The notes beneath the pieces were generated by a model. It saw only the letters and a program-made list of their open reading frames with translations. It was not told the DNA's origin and searched no databases. Position numbers and translations under genes: made by a program. DNA of 46,449 nt from an uncultured bacterium. GTDB taxonomy: Bacteria > Bacillota_I > Bacilli_A > RFN20 > CAG-826. The stretch lies in assembly GCA_949292105.1 (NCBI GenBank), contig CASEYK010000018.1:69134-115582 (forward strand). Direction: 5' to 3'. Numbering within the stretch: position 1 is the stretch's first letter; the number at the start of each line of letters is the position of its first letter. Shown piece after piece: positions 20,049-38,925 of this stretch.

Positions 20049-20450
20049 TTATTGCAAATCATCCTTTGAAAAAGAAAAAGGCAAAAGTTCTTTGGCGTTA
20101 GTCACTTTCATATCCCCTTTCAAATTAGCGAGGACGATGCGAGCTGATGGCAAAAGAAGTTCGTCGATTACTTGACGACAAGCACCGCAAGGTGAACAGA
20201 CATTCGGCGAGTCCGCGACAATGGCTAAGGCGACGATATCATCGCGTGTTTTGCCATGCATATAAGCATTATAAATTGCGTTTCTTTCTCCGCACATCGT
20301 CAAAGGATATGACGCGTTTTCAACATTAGCGCCTAAAAAGACTTCCCCATCCTTTGTCAATACAGCAGCACCGACCGCAAAATGGCTATATGGGGAATAG
20401 GACAAACTCCTTGCCTCAATAGCGAGTTTAACTAATTCTTCATCTTTCAT
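20049..20450 (-). CDS. cdd: Cytidine deaminase
   Basis: Deaminates cytidine and deoxycytidine to uridine in pyrimidine salvage. The 133-aa protein has the short homotetrameric form, with SYSPYSHFAVGAA near residues 17-29, the catalytic MCGERNAI where Cys binds zinc and Glu is the proton shuttle, and PCGACRQV carrying the other two zinc cysteines. Its ATG overlaps the ybeY stop by 4 bp (ATGA) and era follows 2 bp later. Confidence 0.96.
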   Translation of the reverse strand: MKDEELVKLAIEARSLSYSPYSHFAVGAAVLTKDGEVFLGANVENASYPLTMCGERNAIYNAYMHGKTRDDIVALAIVADSPNVCSPCGACRQVIDELLLPSARIVLANLKGDMKVTNAKELLPFSFSKDDLQ

Positions 20451-20908
20451 CTTTTTATACCTCTCGATTCTAAAATTTGTTCTTGTAATTGAAACATAAT
20501 CTTTGATTGTTCTTCCGTCTGATGGTCGAACCCAAGCAAATGGAGAAGACCGTGGACGAATAGAAATGACATCTCCCTCAATAACGAATGTCGATATTCT
20601 TCAGCTTGCCTTTGGGCGGTTTCGAAAGAAATATATATATCGCCAAGTATATACGCCCTAGCGGAATGAACTATTTCTTCTCTATCCGCTTCTTGTTCAA
20701 GATACGCTAAAGAAAGAACATCAGTCGTTCGATCGATATGTCGATATTCATTGTTGAGTTCTTTCATATCGATATCATCAATGATTTCGACATTGACAAT
20801 GGGATTAAAAGTATAACCTAAAAAAGATAAAGTTGCATCAATCAAATCATTAAAAATCTTCTCATATTCTTCAAATTGTTCGTTTTGTGAAAAAAAAGTT
20901 AATTTCAT
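20447..20908 (-). CDS. ybeY: Endoribonuclease YbeY
   Basis: Zinc-dependent rRNA-maturation endoribonuclease. The 153-aa protein ends with the family signature HGLLHLLGFDH (HxxxHxxxxxH), which supplies three zinc-binding histidines. The middle part has the conserved NNEYRHIDRTTDVLSL. There is no Shine-Dalgarno; a perfect extended -10 (TGATATAAT) lies 7 nt before the ATG and overlaps the stop codon of the upstream C39 gene, so a leaderless transcript is predicted. In most Firmicutes phoH is upstream of ybeY; here that place is taken by the C39 membrane peptidase. Confidence 0.95.
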   Translation of the reverse strand: MKLTFFSQNEQFEEYEKIFNDLIDATLSFLGYTFNPIVNVEIIDDIDMKELNNEYRHIDRTTDVLSLAYLEQEADREEIVHSARAYILGDIYISFETAQRQAEEYRHSLLREMSFLFVHGLLHLLGFDHQTEEQSKIMFQLQEQILESRGIKR

Positions 20909-20915
20909 ACAAAAA

Positions 20916-20924
20916 ATTATATCA
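20916..20924 (-). promoter_or_regulatory. Extended -10 promoter directly abutting ybeY
   Basis: TGA plus a perfect TATAAT on the minus strand. The TGA is also the stop codon of the C39 gene. Seven bases (TTTTTGT) separate the hexamer from the ybeY ATG, the same geometry as at ispG and lepA. Confidence 0.65.
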
Positions 20925-22115
20925 CTGTTTCGGCCAATTGTCAGTTGCGACTAATAGGTAGAGATATTTATTTTTTAATAAATAATATTCATTAATTTCT
21001 TGAGAAAGGTTCAGCAATTTTAGACCATTATCTATAAGATAAAAAGAAAGGGCGGAATAAAATAGCAAAAAGGAAAGAGAAACGATTTGTTGAGCAATCA
21101 TTGAACAAATGATTCCGATGAAAACAATGCTGAAATACAAACTTCTTTTAATGTTATCTCTTGCGACCAAGCGATATGTAAGATGATGAAGGGCCTGGAA
21201 TATCGATATCGCTCTTTCTTTCTCGTCAACAAGACTTTGCTCTAATAAGCCGATTTTGTATTTAGCTTTTACTAATCTTTTTTGCATGCACAAAAAATCA
21301 AATAAAACAATAGGAATAATCAAACCCAAAAAGATTAAATTGTAAATGCTATTTATAACTATTAGTGTGCTGATAAAAAGGACGCTTGCCAAGCGAAAGA
21401 GAAAATCAATAGGTAAACTTACATATTTTGATTTAAAAGTTTCATAAGTTTTATATTCTTCAAGACTATAAAAAGGAAGTGTATGGCATCGGCGAATTAA
21501 ATCAGTGTCAAATTTCGATAAAAGAAGAAGGCAAGACGATTTATAAATGATTTCAAAAGCGAGAAAACTAGCGAGCAATAAAATAGGAATTAAAAGGGAA
21601 ACCTGATAATTGATAAAACCAAGCCCAACGATTAGACACGAAAAAGAAATGATTTTAATCGTTGAAAGAAAAAAAGTATAACGCTTTAAAACAGGGTGGA
21701 ATGTCGGCGGAGAAAAATTGAATGTTAAAGTTTGTTCGACTACTAAAGCACATTGATTCCAAAGCGAGAAAAAATCATTATGTGAAATTTTAATAGAGCC
21801 AAAAGACGGATCGAGCATTAAAATCGTTTTTTGTTTAATGTAGATTAAAACAGCGTGGGTTGTCTTCTGCTGTTTGATTGAGACTAATATCCACTGTTTT
21901 TGCAATTTTAAAATATCTTCTTTTCTTTGAAAAGAATATCCACCTAGAACGAGACCGTATTTCTTGCCTAATTCGATTAGAGCGAAATATGAGAGCGAAC
22001 AAATATTTTTTTCTTGCAAAAATAAATATCGCTTGTCGTGGTGATAATGCGCCAAAAGCATCTTTAGACAAGTAAAGCCGCAATCTTGATTATTGATTTG
22101 ATGAATGAATTTCAA
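20922..22115 (-). CDS. C39 cysteine peptidase fused to an ABC-type membrane domain, no ATPase domain
   Basis: Residues 1-145 form a peptidase C39 domain as in bacteriocin-processing exporters: oxyanion Gln6, catalytic Cys12 (Q-x4-DCG), His87 (TTHAVLIY) and Asp102 (LDPS). Residues 148-375 contain three pairs of hydrophobic helices (about 148-200, 237-275 and 330-365), the six-helix core of a type I ABC exporter. The chain then stops at 397 aa, where the nucleotide-binding domain should begin. No Walker A, signature or Walker B motif exists here or nearby, and ybeY follows at once. The TTG start has GGGGG 6 nt upstream, inside the dnaJ terminator hairpin. The reading frame is intact, so it may be a membrane-tethered processing peptidase, may use an ATPase encoded elsewhere, or may be a relic. 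Substrate unknown. Confidence 0.82.
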   Translation of the reverse strand: MKFIHQINNQDCGFTCLKMLLAHYHHDKRYLFLQEKNICSLSYFALIELGKKYGLVLGGYSFQRKEDILKLQKQWILVSIKQQKTTHAVLIYIKQKTILMLDPSFGSIKISHNDFFSLWNQCALVVEQTLTFNFSPPTFHPVLKRYTFFLSTIKIISFSCLIVGLGFINYQVSLLIPILLLASFLAFEIIYKSSCLLLLSKFDTDLIRRCHTLPFYSLEEYKTYETFKSKYVSLPIDFLFRLASVLFISTLIVINSIYNLIFLGLIIPIVLFDFLCMQKRLVKAKYKIGLLEQSLVDEKERAISIFQALHHLTYRLVARDNIKRSLYFSIVFIGIICSMIAQQIVSLSFLLFYSALSFYLIDNGLKLLNLSQEINEYYLLKNKYLYLLVATDNWPKQ

Positions 22116-22151
22116 AAAAAGCCCCCATAAATATGTATATGGAGGTTTTTT
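22115..22151 (-). terminator. dnaJ terminator overlapping the C39 gene ribosome-binding site
   Basis: On the minus strand CCTCCATA pairs with TATGGGGG (one G-U pair) around an 8-nt loop, extended by an A6 run pairing with T's, and followed by seven T's: a Rho-independent terminator 6 bp after the dnaJ stop. The GGGGG of the 3' arm is the only candidate Shine-Dalgarno of the C39 gene, and the T-run is its spacer up to the TTG start. Confidence 0.75.
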
Positions 22152-22156
22152 AATTT

Positions 22157-23299
22157 TTATCTTCTAAAAGCTTTTTTAAATTTATCGAAGAATGATTGAT
22201 TTGACTTTGATGCGTTTTTAAATTGAATCAATAAATCCTTTTGTTCCTTGGATAAAGAGGTTGGGGTTTTGATACTAAGATGAACATACTGATCCCCTGG
22301 ACGGCCAGTTCGCAAGTCCTTAATTCCTTGACCTTTCATGCGAAGAATTTGACCTGGTTGAGTTCCAGCTGGAATAGTCAGAATAGTTTCACCATAAACA
22401 GTTGGAACATCGATTTTAGTTCCCAAGCAAGCATCGACAAAGTCAAGCGGAATTTCAATATGAATATCGTTGCCTTGACGGTTGAATGTCGCATGAGGTT
22501 TGATAATAATCTCGACATACAAATCGCCATTTGGACCACCATTTCTTCCTCTTTCTCCGCGACCTTGCACGCGAATTTGCTGGCCGCTATTAATGCCAGC
22601 AGGAATATGGACATTGATATCGACTTTCTTCTTGACATAGCCCTTGCCAGAACAGTTAGGACATTTATCGCTTATAACTTTGCCGCTACCAGCACAGTTA
22701 GGACATACTTCTTGCGATTCCATTACCCCAAAAAGGGAACGCCTTTGTACTTTGACATATCCAGCACCATGGCATTGCGGACAGGTGTGGATATCGCTAG
22801 CAGATCTAGCCCCGCTGCCACCACAACTCGCACATGTTTCCTCTACATTGAGAGATAGAGTGATATCGCGCCCATTGACGGCGTCCATGAAGTCAATCTT
22901 GACGCGCATAATAGCGTCTTGACCTCTTTGTGGACCAGTTGAAGTTCTTTGCGTTCTTCGTGTTCCACCGCCAAAGAAGGAAGAAAATATATCGTTTAAA
23001 TCGACTCCGCCACCTCCGAAATCAAATCCTGAAAAACCACCGCCTTGGAAAGGATTGGCGCCTGGATTTGTGCCAGCTTGTTCAAAAGCAGCATGACCAA
23101 ATTGATCATAAGTTGCTCTTTTTTGGTCGTCATAAAGAATATCATACGCTTCTTGAATTTGTTTAAAGCGCGCTTCGTCGCCAGTTTCTTTATTATCTGG
23201 ATGATATTTTTTAGCTAAACGGCGATAAGCGCTTTTGATTTCATCTTTAGTCGCGCTCTTTTTAACTCCAAGAGTCTCATAATAATCTTGTTTTGCCAT
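22157..23299 (-). CDS. dnaJ: Chaperone DnaJ
   Basis: Hsp40 co-chaperone that delivers substrates to DnaK and stimulates its ATPase. The J-domain has YHPDNKETGD with the HPD triad near residues 32-34. A Gly/Phe-rich linker (about 75-115) follows. The zinc domain carries all four CxxCxGxG repeats: CASCGGSG, CPQCHGAG, CPNCAGSG and CPNCSGKG. The C-terminal substrate-binding domains complete the 380-aa type I DnaJ. GGAG lies before the ATG. It is last in hrcA-grpE-dnaK-dnaJ and is followed by a terminator. Confidence 0.98.
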   Translation of the reverse strand: MAKQDYYETLGVKKSATKDEIKSAYRRLAKKYHPDNKETGDEARFKQIQEAYDILYDDQKRATYDQFGHAAFEQAGTNPGANPFQGGGFSGFDFGGGGVDLNDIFSSFFGGGTRRTQRTSTGPQRGQDAIMRVKIDFMDAVNGRDITLSLNVEETCASCGGSGARSASDIHTCPQCHGAGYVKVQRRSLFGVMESQEVCPNCAGSGKVISDKCPNCSGKGYVKKKVDINVHIPAGINSGQQIRVQGRGERGRNGGPNGDLYVEIIIKPHATFNRQGNDIHIEIPLDFVDACLGTKIDVPTVYGETILTIPAGTQPGQILRMKGQGIKDLRTGRPGDQYVHLSIKTPTSLSKEQKDLLIQFKNASKSNQSFFDKFKKAFRR

Positions 23300-36909: not shown

Positions 36910-38925
36910 TTAAAAAAGAAAATTTTGAAATGTTATGGTGCCATCAATATCTGTTCGATAAATTTTTACATCGTATTTTTCAAGAGTTGCAATTACTTCG
37001 CTGTGCGGATGACCATAATAATTCATACCAACTGATATAATTGCAATTTCTGGTTGAAGAAACGCGATGAAACGTTCGCTTGAAGACGATTTGGAGCCGT
37101 GATGACCAACTTTTAAGACATCACATTCAATATTTGGATAATTTTCAATGATGAGGGTTTCAACCTTCTCTGAAGCATCACCCATTAATAAATAATGCCG
37201 CTTATCAAGCACAAATCCAATGACAAGAGATTGATTGTTTGTTTCATTGGCTCGTTCAATGAAATTGTTGTAATTATAAAGAGTTAATTGATCATTAATG
37301 GTAAGAGGAAAAGAATCGCTGCTATCAATAAAATGATGAATCGGTAAATATGTTGCTAAAGATGATAACGCACCGTTGTGATCAAAATCGTCATGAGTAA
37401 TGATGCAGTAATCGATTTTATATATTCTTTTTGCTTTCAAATACGAGTACAAAACATCTTTGCCGATATCAAAATATGTTAAACCGCCAGTATCGATAAG
37501 AATTGTCGTGTTTCGGTAGCGAAGCAAAGTTGAATCGCCTTGTCCAACATTGACAAAACTGATTTCATATGTCATCCAATTTTTTATTGGGAGTGAATAA
37601 ATGGATAGGGCTAGGATAGCACAGCCGCAAATCGTTTTAACAAGAGGAAATAGTGAAATACTGATTAGGTAAAGTAAAAAAGCAAAAACAAAATAAAAAA
37701 TAAGTGTTTCAAACTCGCTCAGCGGAGGTAAATAAATACTGCTATGGAAAGAGACAAAAAATTTCGCCATTTGATTTGAAAGATGGGCAAGGGGCGAAAT
37801 TAAATAAATGAATGGGATGCGGTATAAACACAAAAGGGCTAAAACCGCCATAACAATAAAAAATGGTGTAAAGATGGCTTGATATAAGCAAGTGAAAAGA
37901 TTGATTTCATGATAATATTTGATTTCAAATGGAATGAAACAGATAAACAAGAGAAAAGTTTGTAAAAAACTTCGCACTGCTTTTGAGTGAAAGCGCTTTG
38001 CTGCCCTTGTGATGTAATAAAACGCAAACGGCATTGTAAATCCTAAGACAAAACTATCTTGATAAGCAAAGTGGTAATCGCAAACAAGAAAGAAAATTCC
38101 AAATGTAGCAATAATTTGTAGATGATGATAATTATGATGCAAAAGGTATTCGTTAATCCATTTTATAATGTTTAGCAAGACGATGCGCATGAGCGCAAAA
38201 CGCGGAAAAAGAATGACAAAATAAGGGGTTAATAAAAATAAGCTCAATAATTTTGCCCACTTTTTTCGAAAACAAAAGGACAATAAATAGGTAAATGAAT
38301 TGATAAATAGGTAAATGAAAAATCCGCTCGAAGCAATCAATCTCCCCAAATGCAGTTGTTCAAAAGGGTGGCTTATTTCATCGATTTCACCGCCAGCAAA
38401 CAATAACATATTCAAAATAGCGCTTGTGTTTTTATCAAAACGATTTAAAAAATTTTCTTTAATCTCAAGAGATCGAATTGGATTAGCAAAATGAACTTGT
38501 AGAGAAACGGGCTTTAACTCATTTTTTACACCCTTATCTTTTAAAAATTGTTCAAAATTAAATGACGATTCGTAATGTGAAAAATGAATCGGCTTTTTTT
38601 CTCCATTAATCGAAACGATATCACCGACTTCTAATCGATATTGATCGTTTTTGACATACATTTTTTCTAAGCGAGCAGAAAAAATAACATAACTCGGTTT
38701 AGCTTCCACGACAATACCAAGATATTCCTCGCTCTTCCAATTCGGCTGAATCATCGAGACACATATACCTATTAGGTATATACCGATTAAGCTGATACAT
38801 TTTTTCTTTCTGTAGCGGGCAAGGAGATAAATAAGAAAAATAGCGAAAAGAAAAATATAAAAAAACGGATTATTCTTAGTAGATAAACCAAGCCATAATC
38901 CAATAAAAATAAAGATTACAATCAC
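36910..38925 (-). CDS. comEC: DNA internalization protein ComEC/Rec2
   Basis: Polytopic channel that carries single-stranded DNA across the membrane in transformation. The 671-aa protein has N-terminal membrane helices and an OB-fold-like soluble loop (about 60-145), the ComEC competence domain with many helices (about 165-450), and a C-terminal metallo-beta-lactamase domain: VNVGQGDSTLL, THDDFDHNGA near 505-514, LMGDAS and KVGHHGSKSSSS. The MBL metal site is complete. It begins with GTG overlapping the comEA stop (GTGA). A complete comEA-comEC pair suggests DNA uptake or a related function, but no pilus genes are in this window. Confidence 0.95.
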   Translation of the reverse strand: MIVIFIFIGLWLGLSTKNNPFFYIFLFAIFLIYLLARYRKKKCISLIGIYLIGICVSMIQPNWKSEEYLGIVVEAKPSYVIFSARLEKMYVKNDQYRLEVGDIVSINGEKKPIHFSHYESSFNFEQFLKDKGVKNELKPVSLQVHFANPIRSLEIKENFLNRFDKNTSAILNMLLFAGGEIDEISHPFEQLHLGRLIASSGFFIYLFINSFTYLLSFCFRKKWAKLLSLFLLTPYFVILFPRFALMRIVLLNIIKWINEYLLHHNYHHLQIIATFGIFFLVCDYHFAYQDSFVLGFTMPFAFYYITRAAKRFHSKAVRSFLQTFLLFICFIPFEIKYYHEINLFTCLYQAIFTPFFIVMAVLALLCLYRIPFIYLISPLAHLSNQMAKFFVSFHSSIYLPPLSEFETLIFYFVFAFLLYLISISLFPLVKTICGCAILALSIYSLPIKNWMTYEISFVNVGQGDSTLLRYRNTTILIDTGGLTYFDIGKDVLYSYLKAKRIYKIDYCIITHDDFDHNGALSSLATYLPIHHFIDSSDSFPLTINDQLTLYNYNNFIERANETNNQSLVIGFVLDKRHYLLMGDASEKVETLIIENYPNIECDVLKVGHHGSKSSSSERFIAFLQPEIAIISVGMNYYGHPHSEVIATLEKYDVKIYRTDIDGTITFQNFLF

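Follow-up and report, generated by a model that had tools for sequence, protein, structure and literature searches.

What is left for a peptidase-containing ABC exporter (PCAT) to do once it has no ATPase domain? The question is raised by a gene that lies between dnaJ and ybeY in a 46,449-nucleotide stretch of DNA, referred to throughout as the window, from an uncultured bacterium of the order RFN20 (contig CASEYK010000018.1, assembly GCA_949292105.1). A first-pass annotation, made from the sequence alone, had described the product as a C39 peptidase followed by a six-helix ABC-type membrane domain, had noted that the nucleotide-binding domain (NBD) is missing, and had offered two explanations, namely a membrane-embedded leader peptidase or a half-transporter that borrows an ATPase. 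No description of NBD-less proteins joining a C39 peptidase to such a transmembrane domain (TMD) was found in the open-access literature searched. We have followed the gene through structure prediction, the genomes of its relatives, its locus and its phylogeny, and the features on which the argument draws, all of them on the minus strand, are the following.

20922..22115, minus strand: gene for the NBD-less C39 plus TMD protein, 397 aa, TTG start
21729..22112, minus strand: C39 peptidase domain, residues 2-129 (PF03412, E 5.4e-16; LahT150, 6mpz, 1.9e-19 by profile)
22098..22100, minus strand: codon of Gln6 (oxyanion hole), from the sequence; invariant in 30 homologs
22080..22082, minus strand: codon of the catalytic Cys12, from the sequence; invariant in 30 homologs and in 40/40 of an extended set
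21855..21857, minus strand: codon of the catalytic His87, from the sequence; invariant in 30 homologs and in 40/40 of the extended set
21810..21812, minus strand: codon of the catalytic Asp102, from the sequence; invariant in 30 homologs and present in 38/40 of the extended set
20946..21686, minus strand: six-helix membrane domain of the PCAT/type IV exporter fold, residues 144-390 (AlphaFold2 model, Foldseek match to PCAT1, alignment to full PCATs)
21432..21509, minus strand: tip of ICL1 (residues 203-228), which lacks the coupling helix 1 region and is 12 residues short of its length in full PCATs
21141..21263, minus strand: ICL2 (residues 285-325), which lacks the coupling helix 2 region and is about 18 residues short of its length in full PCATs
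20447..20908, minus strand: ybeY, the conserved downstream neighbour (PF02130, E 9.7e-41; synteny)
22157..23299, minus strand: dnaJ, the upstream neighbour in the window (PF00226/PF01556)
22122..22145, minus strand: terminator-like hairpin after dnaJ (z -3.56), its U-run reaching as far as the gene's TTG start
20916..20944, minus strand: promoter-like site ahead of ybeY, at the gene's 3' end (11/12, extended -10; consensus match only)

The clean frame of the first-pass annotation, which gave no strand, is the 397-aa frame of the minus strand; the plus strand of 20922..22115 is full of stops. The N-terminus of the protein (MKFIHQINNQDCGF...) aligns with the N-termini of its relatives, which makes the TTG start plausible. 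Pfam matched Peptidase_C39 only, and neither ABC_membrane nor ABC_tran, while the NCBIfam matches were all weak, the best being NF045998 (the Mbov_0121-type mycoplasma PCAT; E 4.3e-7) with 28.6 bits against a cut-off of 500. In a profile search the protein found LahT150 (1.9e-19), PCAT1 (6e-16) and ComA (6.7e-11). The AlphaFold2 model, for which 30 homologs were used, is confident (pLDDT 90.4, pTM 0.84) and consists of a C39 fold followed by long helices at residues 144-166, 175-209, 218-255, 259-297, 299-342, 347-368 and 370-390; when it was compared with the PDB by Foldseek the best 13 matches were all to the exporter PCAT1 (best E 5e-13, identity 16-18%), and a viral structure library contained no close match. 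Since ybeY starts 13 bp downstream, there is no space for a fragment of an ATPase. The earlier description, a C39 peptidase with its four active-site residues and an ABC-type six-helix domain without an ATPase, is correct, and the housekeeping setting that it gave stands as well, both dnaJ and ybeY being confirmed by Pfam in the window. The terminator-like hairpin on one side of the gene is strong and the promoter-like site on the other, before ybeY, comes close to consensus, and the gene may be expressed by read-through only.

The same length and architecture recur in most relatives, so that the NBD-less gene is not a product of chance. The window protein matches 33 of the 58 relatives' genomes, and nearly all of these homologs are full-length and without an NBD; PF03412 is found in 49 of the 58, in 251 of the 279 genomes of the order and in 141 of the 150 with at least 90% completeness, a few good-quality genomes of the order being without the gene. 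Among the genomes listed, the C39 frames are bimodal in length, with window-type frames of about 360-450 aa and full PCATs of about 720-750 aa, the latter being additional genes in some genomes of the order; intact frames occur in about a hundred of the genomes listed, and in the window's own genome the gene of the window is the one C39 gene. Scans of genome contigs and viral contigs with the window protein alone as the query gave zero matches, and a small alignment of closer relatives used as the query gave 25 loci, mostly in rumen and gut Bacilli MAGs, the named matching records being rumen, gut and lake MAGs labelled Bacilli, Bacillales or Erysipelotrichaceae. This is a core gene of an order of gut bacteria with small genomes of about 1 Mb.

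Its position is conserved on one side only. Nearly all genomes of families f1, f3 and f5 have ybeY-cdd-era-recO-glyS immediately after the gene, whereas the upstream side is variable, being occupied by dnaJ in the window and elsewhere by a housekeeping run ending in rpsU or by dnaB-dnaI; in one genome (G052, locus L045) the gene adjoins yqfC/yqfD instead of ybeY (PF06898, E 4e-38). A bacteriocin-type cluster between dnaJ and the gene in relatives was considered and rejected, the genes found there being housekeeping genes that read as rsmE, mtaB, rpmF, deoC and rpsU (labels given by reading the sequences). A 403-aa membrane-protein frame between the C39 gene and ybeY in another genome (L046:8304-9515:+, G018), the N-terminus of which looks NBD-like by eye, was likewise rejected as a degenerate NBD, a profile of that domain giving no match.

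The origin of the gene can be followed in sister families that occupy the same locus. The C39 gene at ybeY in family f20 is complete and of PCAT length in nine of ten loci (L183-L186, L209 and L211-L214), the proteins being of 663-687 aa with ybeY immediately after, and the tenth (L210) is interrupted by a stop. In mycoplasma-type loci that read TGA as Trp (families f11 and f22) it is PCAT-length in 16 of 16, at 599-688 aa, and either adjoins ybeY on the upstream side or is one gene away from it. When four f20 proteins were tested against Pfam, C39 and ABC_tran were found in all of them and ABC_membrane in three; the best NCBIfam match of the f20 proteins is the Mbov_0121 family, with NF045998 scores of 246-341, below the cut-off of 500. 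A tree of the C39 and membrane domains, many of whose terminal branches are long, gathers the NBD-less proteins into a single clade (UFBoot 95, SH-aLRT 92) and joins it with the f20 and mycoplasma PCATs (94/85); the NHLP-type accessory exporters branch separately, as they do in a larger quick tree. Given complete PCATs at the same locus in the sisters and a single NBD-less clade, the simplest history, and a probable one, is a single early loss of the NBD in the ancestor of this order. So far as orthology can be read from locus and tree, the gene is shown to be an NBD-less descendant of the ybeY-linked PCAT of the Mbov_0121 / JCVI-syn3A 0401 type.

The ATPase is not all that was lost. Compared with full PCATs, the NBD-less proteins have about 13 residues fewer in the first outer loop, an ICL1 of 26 rather than 38 residues (12 lost at the tip) and an ICL2 of 42 rather than 60 (18 lost), while most helical stretches between the lost segments are unchanged in length. 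The ICL tips of type IV exporters hold the coupling helices on which the NBD docks (PMC13316013), and both of these regions are deleted in f1, f3 and f5. Family f8 (L126, L127 and L129) is the sole NBD-less family to retain them (ICL1 38, ICL2 52-59); it is the first branch of the NBD-less group, with a split support of 100/100, and is an apparent intermediate from before the loss of the coupling helices. Two families go further, both of them mostly at the ybeY locus: f2, of 167-171 aa, has C39 and one TM helix, and f4, of 120-131 aa, has C39 alone, its proteins having lost the oxyanion Gln and kept Cys, His and Asp. Three of the f4 loci (L134, L136 and L138) encode a bare C39, and two of these are near ybeY and yqfC/yqfD. 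As f8 keeps the ICL tips and f2 and f4 keep C39, the likely order of the losses is the NBD, then the docking helices and then, in f2 and f4, the membrane domain. By descent, then, the protein belongs to a branch of the PCATs, and by its make-up it is no PCAT, both NBD and docking helices being gone.

A related loss is seen among the mycoplasma-type proteins. Five of them (L181, L182 and L195-L197) have a C-terminal domain without Walker A, signature or Walker B motifs, match C39 only in Pfam and keep the C39 catalytic residues intact. The model of L195 (pLDDT 82.4) matches PCAT1 over about 690 columns, so that a dead NBD is the best reading of its C-terminal domain; L181, L195 and L196 have both ICL tips shortened (30 and 46), and L182 has only that of ICL1 shortened. 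As judged from these motifs, the sub-lineage is a second, independent case in which the motor has been lost and the peptidase site kept. The PCAT frames of L197, L199 and L201 have the Q-C motif upstream of the first ATG/GTG/TTG and may use a rare start codon. A DJ-1/PfpI gene stands just before the PCAT at several of these loci, L195 among them (PF01965, E 2e-29), and also in L199, and this order matches the published one in JCVI-syn3A, where 0400 is DJ-1/YraA-like (PMC4993169) and 0401 is a C39 PCAT (PMC6609329), which suggests that the minimal-cell gene 0401 is an ortholog of the ybeY-linked PCAT; its NBD may likewise be dead. Transposon data suggest that the minimal cell can do without 0401 (PMC6609329). 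Between the PCAT and ybeY, nine loci (L198, L199, L201-L204 and L206-L208) encode proteins 118-167 aa long that have a single membrane helix, at the N-terminus; three of these gave no match in Pfam, and they are possibly an accessory subunit of the ybeY-linked PCAT.

The peptidase site itself has been kept with great constancy. Among 30 full-length NBD-less homologs, which have 16-39% identity to the window protein and a mean column identity of 32%, Gln6, Cys12, His87 and Asp102 are the only invariant columns. Widening the alignment to 40 proteins leaves Cys and His present in all and Gln and Asp in 38 each; L133 and L194 lack the Gln, L131 and L137 the Asp, and in these, as in family f4, the site may have changed or be without activity. 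Over ten pairs the dN/dS of the C39 part ranges from 0.08 to 0.26 and that of the TMD from 0.08 to 0.19 (Nei-Gojobori counts, in which dS values above 1 are imprecise), ratios that show purifying selection on both halves as far as such counts allow. Asp203 and Lys228 are near-invariant at the base of the shortened ICL1, the Lys being characteristic of NBD-less proteins (35/40 vs 10/34). The first-pass annotation had reasoned that an in-frame NBD in sister species, or the loss of catalytic residues across relatives, would speak against it. Since the former was found in distant sister families only and the latter in a few side lineages only, the truncation appears to be ancient and under selection rather than a recent decay, and by these measures this is not a decaying gene.

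The substrate is unlikely to be the usual one. Double-Gly leaders were not detected in the own genome, in keeping with the earlier remark that no such leader gene is visible, and TIGR01847 gave no match in G000 or G001, although divergent leaders could escape detection. The leaders that were detected track the full PCATs, being found in four of four genomes with a full PCAT and in three of 54 others (Fisher p 8e-5); they go with full PCATs and not with the window-type gene, so that a role as a double-Gly leader peptidase is unsupported. The authors of the JCVI-syn3A model also found no double-Gly peptide candidate for 0401 (PMC6609329). Of the proposed membrane-embedded leader peptidase, the membrane peptidase holds, in that its catalytic set is invariant, both halves are selected and C39 survives the losses, whereas the leader in the double-Gly sense does not, such leaders accompanying the full accessory PCATs.

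We regard it as fairly probable that the protein is an ATP-independent, membrane-anchored C39 endopeptidase acting on a substrate other than a classical double-Gly peptide. The ATPase domain would have been lost from the ybeY-linked PCAT in the ancestor of the order and the coupling helices later, in most families. The membrane domain would probably form a homodimer, like that of PCAT1, and hold C39 at the cytosolic membrane face, where C39 would recognise a leader-like or N-terminal segment of a probably housekeeping substrate, which Cys12, His87 and Asp102 would cut with Gln6 in the oxyanion hole. We infer here the proteolytic activity, the dimer, the cytosolic side, the type of substrate and the absence of energised transport; the pattern of losses suggests that cutting, rather than pumping, is the main job of the gene family. 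Selection constrains the TMD no less than the peptidase, which argues that the TMD does more than anchor; its loss in f2 and f4 argues that some lineages can dispense with it. Candidate roles for it are those of an anchor, a dimer scaffold, a guide for the substrate or an SbmA-like proton-driven path.

The last of these leads to a different view of the whole protein, as a secondary peptide transporter, driven by protons or the membrane potential and working by alternating access without ATP as in SbmA/BacA, to which a peptidase is attached. Purifying selection on the TMD as strong as that on the peptidase, the retained PCAT fold and the fact that the lost parts are those proposed to have been lost in the SLiPTs (PMC13316013) are what this view would predict, and there is a membrane glutamate, E188, as well as the conserved D203 and E292 near cytosolic helix ends. 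We consider it unlikely, however, for E188 is alone in a membrane helix and conserved to 60%, where SbmA has a ladder of conserved membrane glutamates, and f2 and f4 do without most or all of the TMD. The half-transporter of the first-pass annotation, in which processing and export would still be run by an ATPase encoded elsewhere, could likewise account for a TMD that is retained and constrained; there are about 20 ABC ATPases in the own genome, where the ABC-ATPase profile has 28 matches, and a split of TMD and NBD over two genes is known for YddA (PMC13316013). Yet both ICL tips on which such an ATPase would dock are deleted in f1, f3 and f5, the ATPases of the genome most similar to PCAT NBDs carry fused TMDs of their own, neither an orphan PCAT-like ATPase nor any ATPase-only protein notably like one was found in that genome, and the NBD genes in the neighbourhoods searched are only those of importers or other systems, all of which makes a borrowed motor highly improbable. 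An ABC ATPase beside members of f8 was rejected as a partner; it adjoins a permease and a binding protein and reads, from its sequence, as part of an importer.

That the gene is what remains of a bacteriocin exporter, on its way to becoming a pseudogene, might be read from the stepwise loss of domains across families and from the few lineages in which catalytic residues are gone. Against this stand the intact frames in about a hundred of the genomes listed, the low dN/dS in both halves, the invariance of the catalytic columns in 30 divergent homologs and an order-wide retention despite genomes of about 1 Mb, so that decay is, if anything, a shade less probable than a borrowed ATPase. The peptidase domain might instead be a non-proteolytic receptor or regulator conserved for binding, as the C39-like domains of HlyB-type proteins are non-catalytic parts, and the loss of Gln or Asp in some lineages would fit; we think this very unlikely, however, since the HlyB-type domains lack the Cys and the invariant columns here are exactly the catalytic set. 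Hardly credible, finally, is a lipoyl transfer enzyme, in which C39 would act as a transamidase on lipoylated PdhC, a model put forward tentatively for JCVI-syn3A 0401 because no double-Gly peptide had been found (PMC6609329): the lipoyl-bearing E2 (PF00198) is absent from 55 of the 58 genomes, the own genome included, whereas C39 is present in 49.

Several known systems resemble the protein in part. The exporter PCAT1 from Clostridium thermocellum (4ry2, 6v9z, 8vp5) and other PCAT/AMS exporters, including ComA, have the same order of C39 and then a type IV TMD, and PCAT1, the best fold match in spite of the low identity, has identical catalytic residues; unlike PCAT1 and ComA, the window protein is without NBD, coupling-helix tips and a GG-peptide partner. 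The PCATs of the Mbov_0121 family lineage (NF045998) occupy the same place upstream of ybeY(-cdd)-era and are its neighbours in the tree, but they keep an NBD, functional or dead, where the window protein has none. SbmA/BacA (SLiPT) likewise has an ABC-type TMD and neither NBD nor coupling helices, and the SLiPTs are proposed to derive from full ABC transporters by loss of these parts (PMC13316013); the window protein, however, lacks TM0 and the glutamate ladder, SbmA/BacA lacks a peptidase, and the two are of independent origin. The double-Gly protease domain LahT150 (6mpz) shares the C39 fold and catalytic set but is a domain excised from a complete PCAT, and its substrates are GG leaders. 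The NHLP-type exporters (TIGR03796; L140 and L141, extra genes in relatives) share C39 and TMD, and differ in that their NBD is complete, that GG leaders occur in their genomes and that they form a separate branch of the tree.

It is tempting, although we lean somewhat short of halfway towards it, to see in these proteins a new functional class, in which ABC exporters have become ATP-independent membrane peptidases with a core housekeeping role, and have done so at least twice independently, by deletion of the NBD here and with a dead NBD in the mycoplasma lineage. If this is true, the minimal-cell gene 0401 would encode a membrane endopeptidase and not an exporter or importer, and there would be a second route to the loss of the motor in an ABC exporter, besides that of SbmA/BacA. 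In these families nature has taken a conserved PCAT apart domain by domain, dropping ATPase, docking helices and membrane domain in turn and keeping the peptidase in nearly all; this indicates which part of the family is needed, and turns the question of JCVI-syn3A 0401 into a hunt for the substrate of a protease. Elsewhere in the window, at 36910-38925, lies a comEC-like gene (a label from sequence reading alone), in a genome of 1 Mb.
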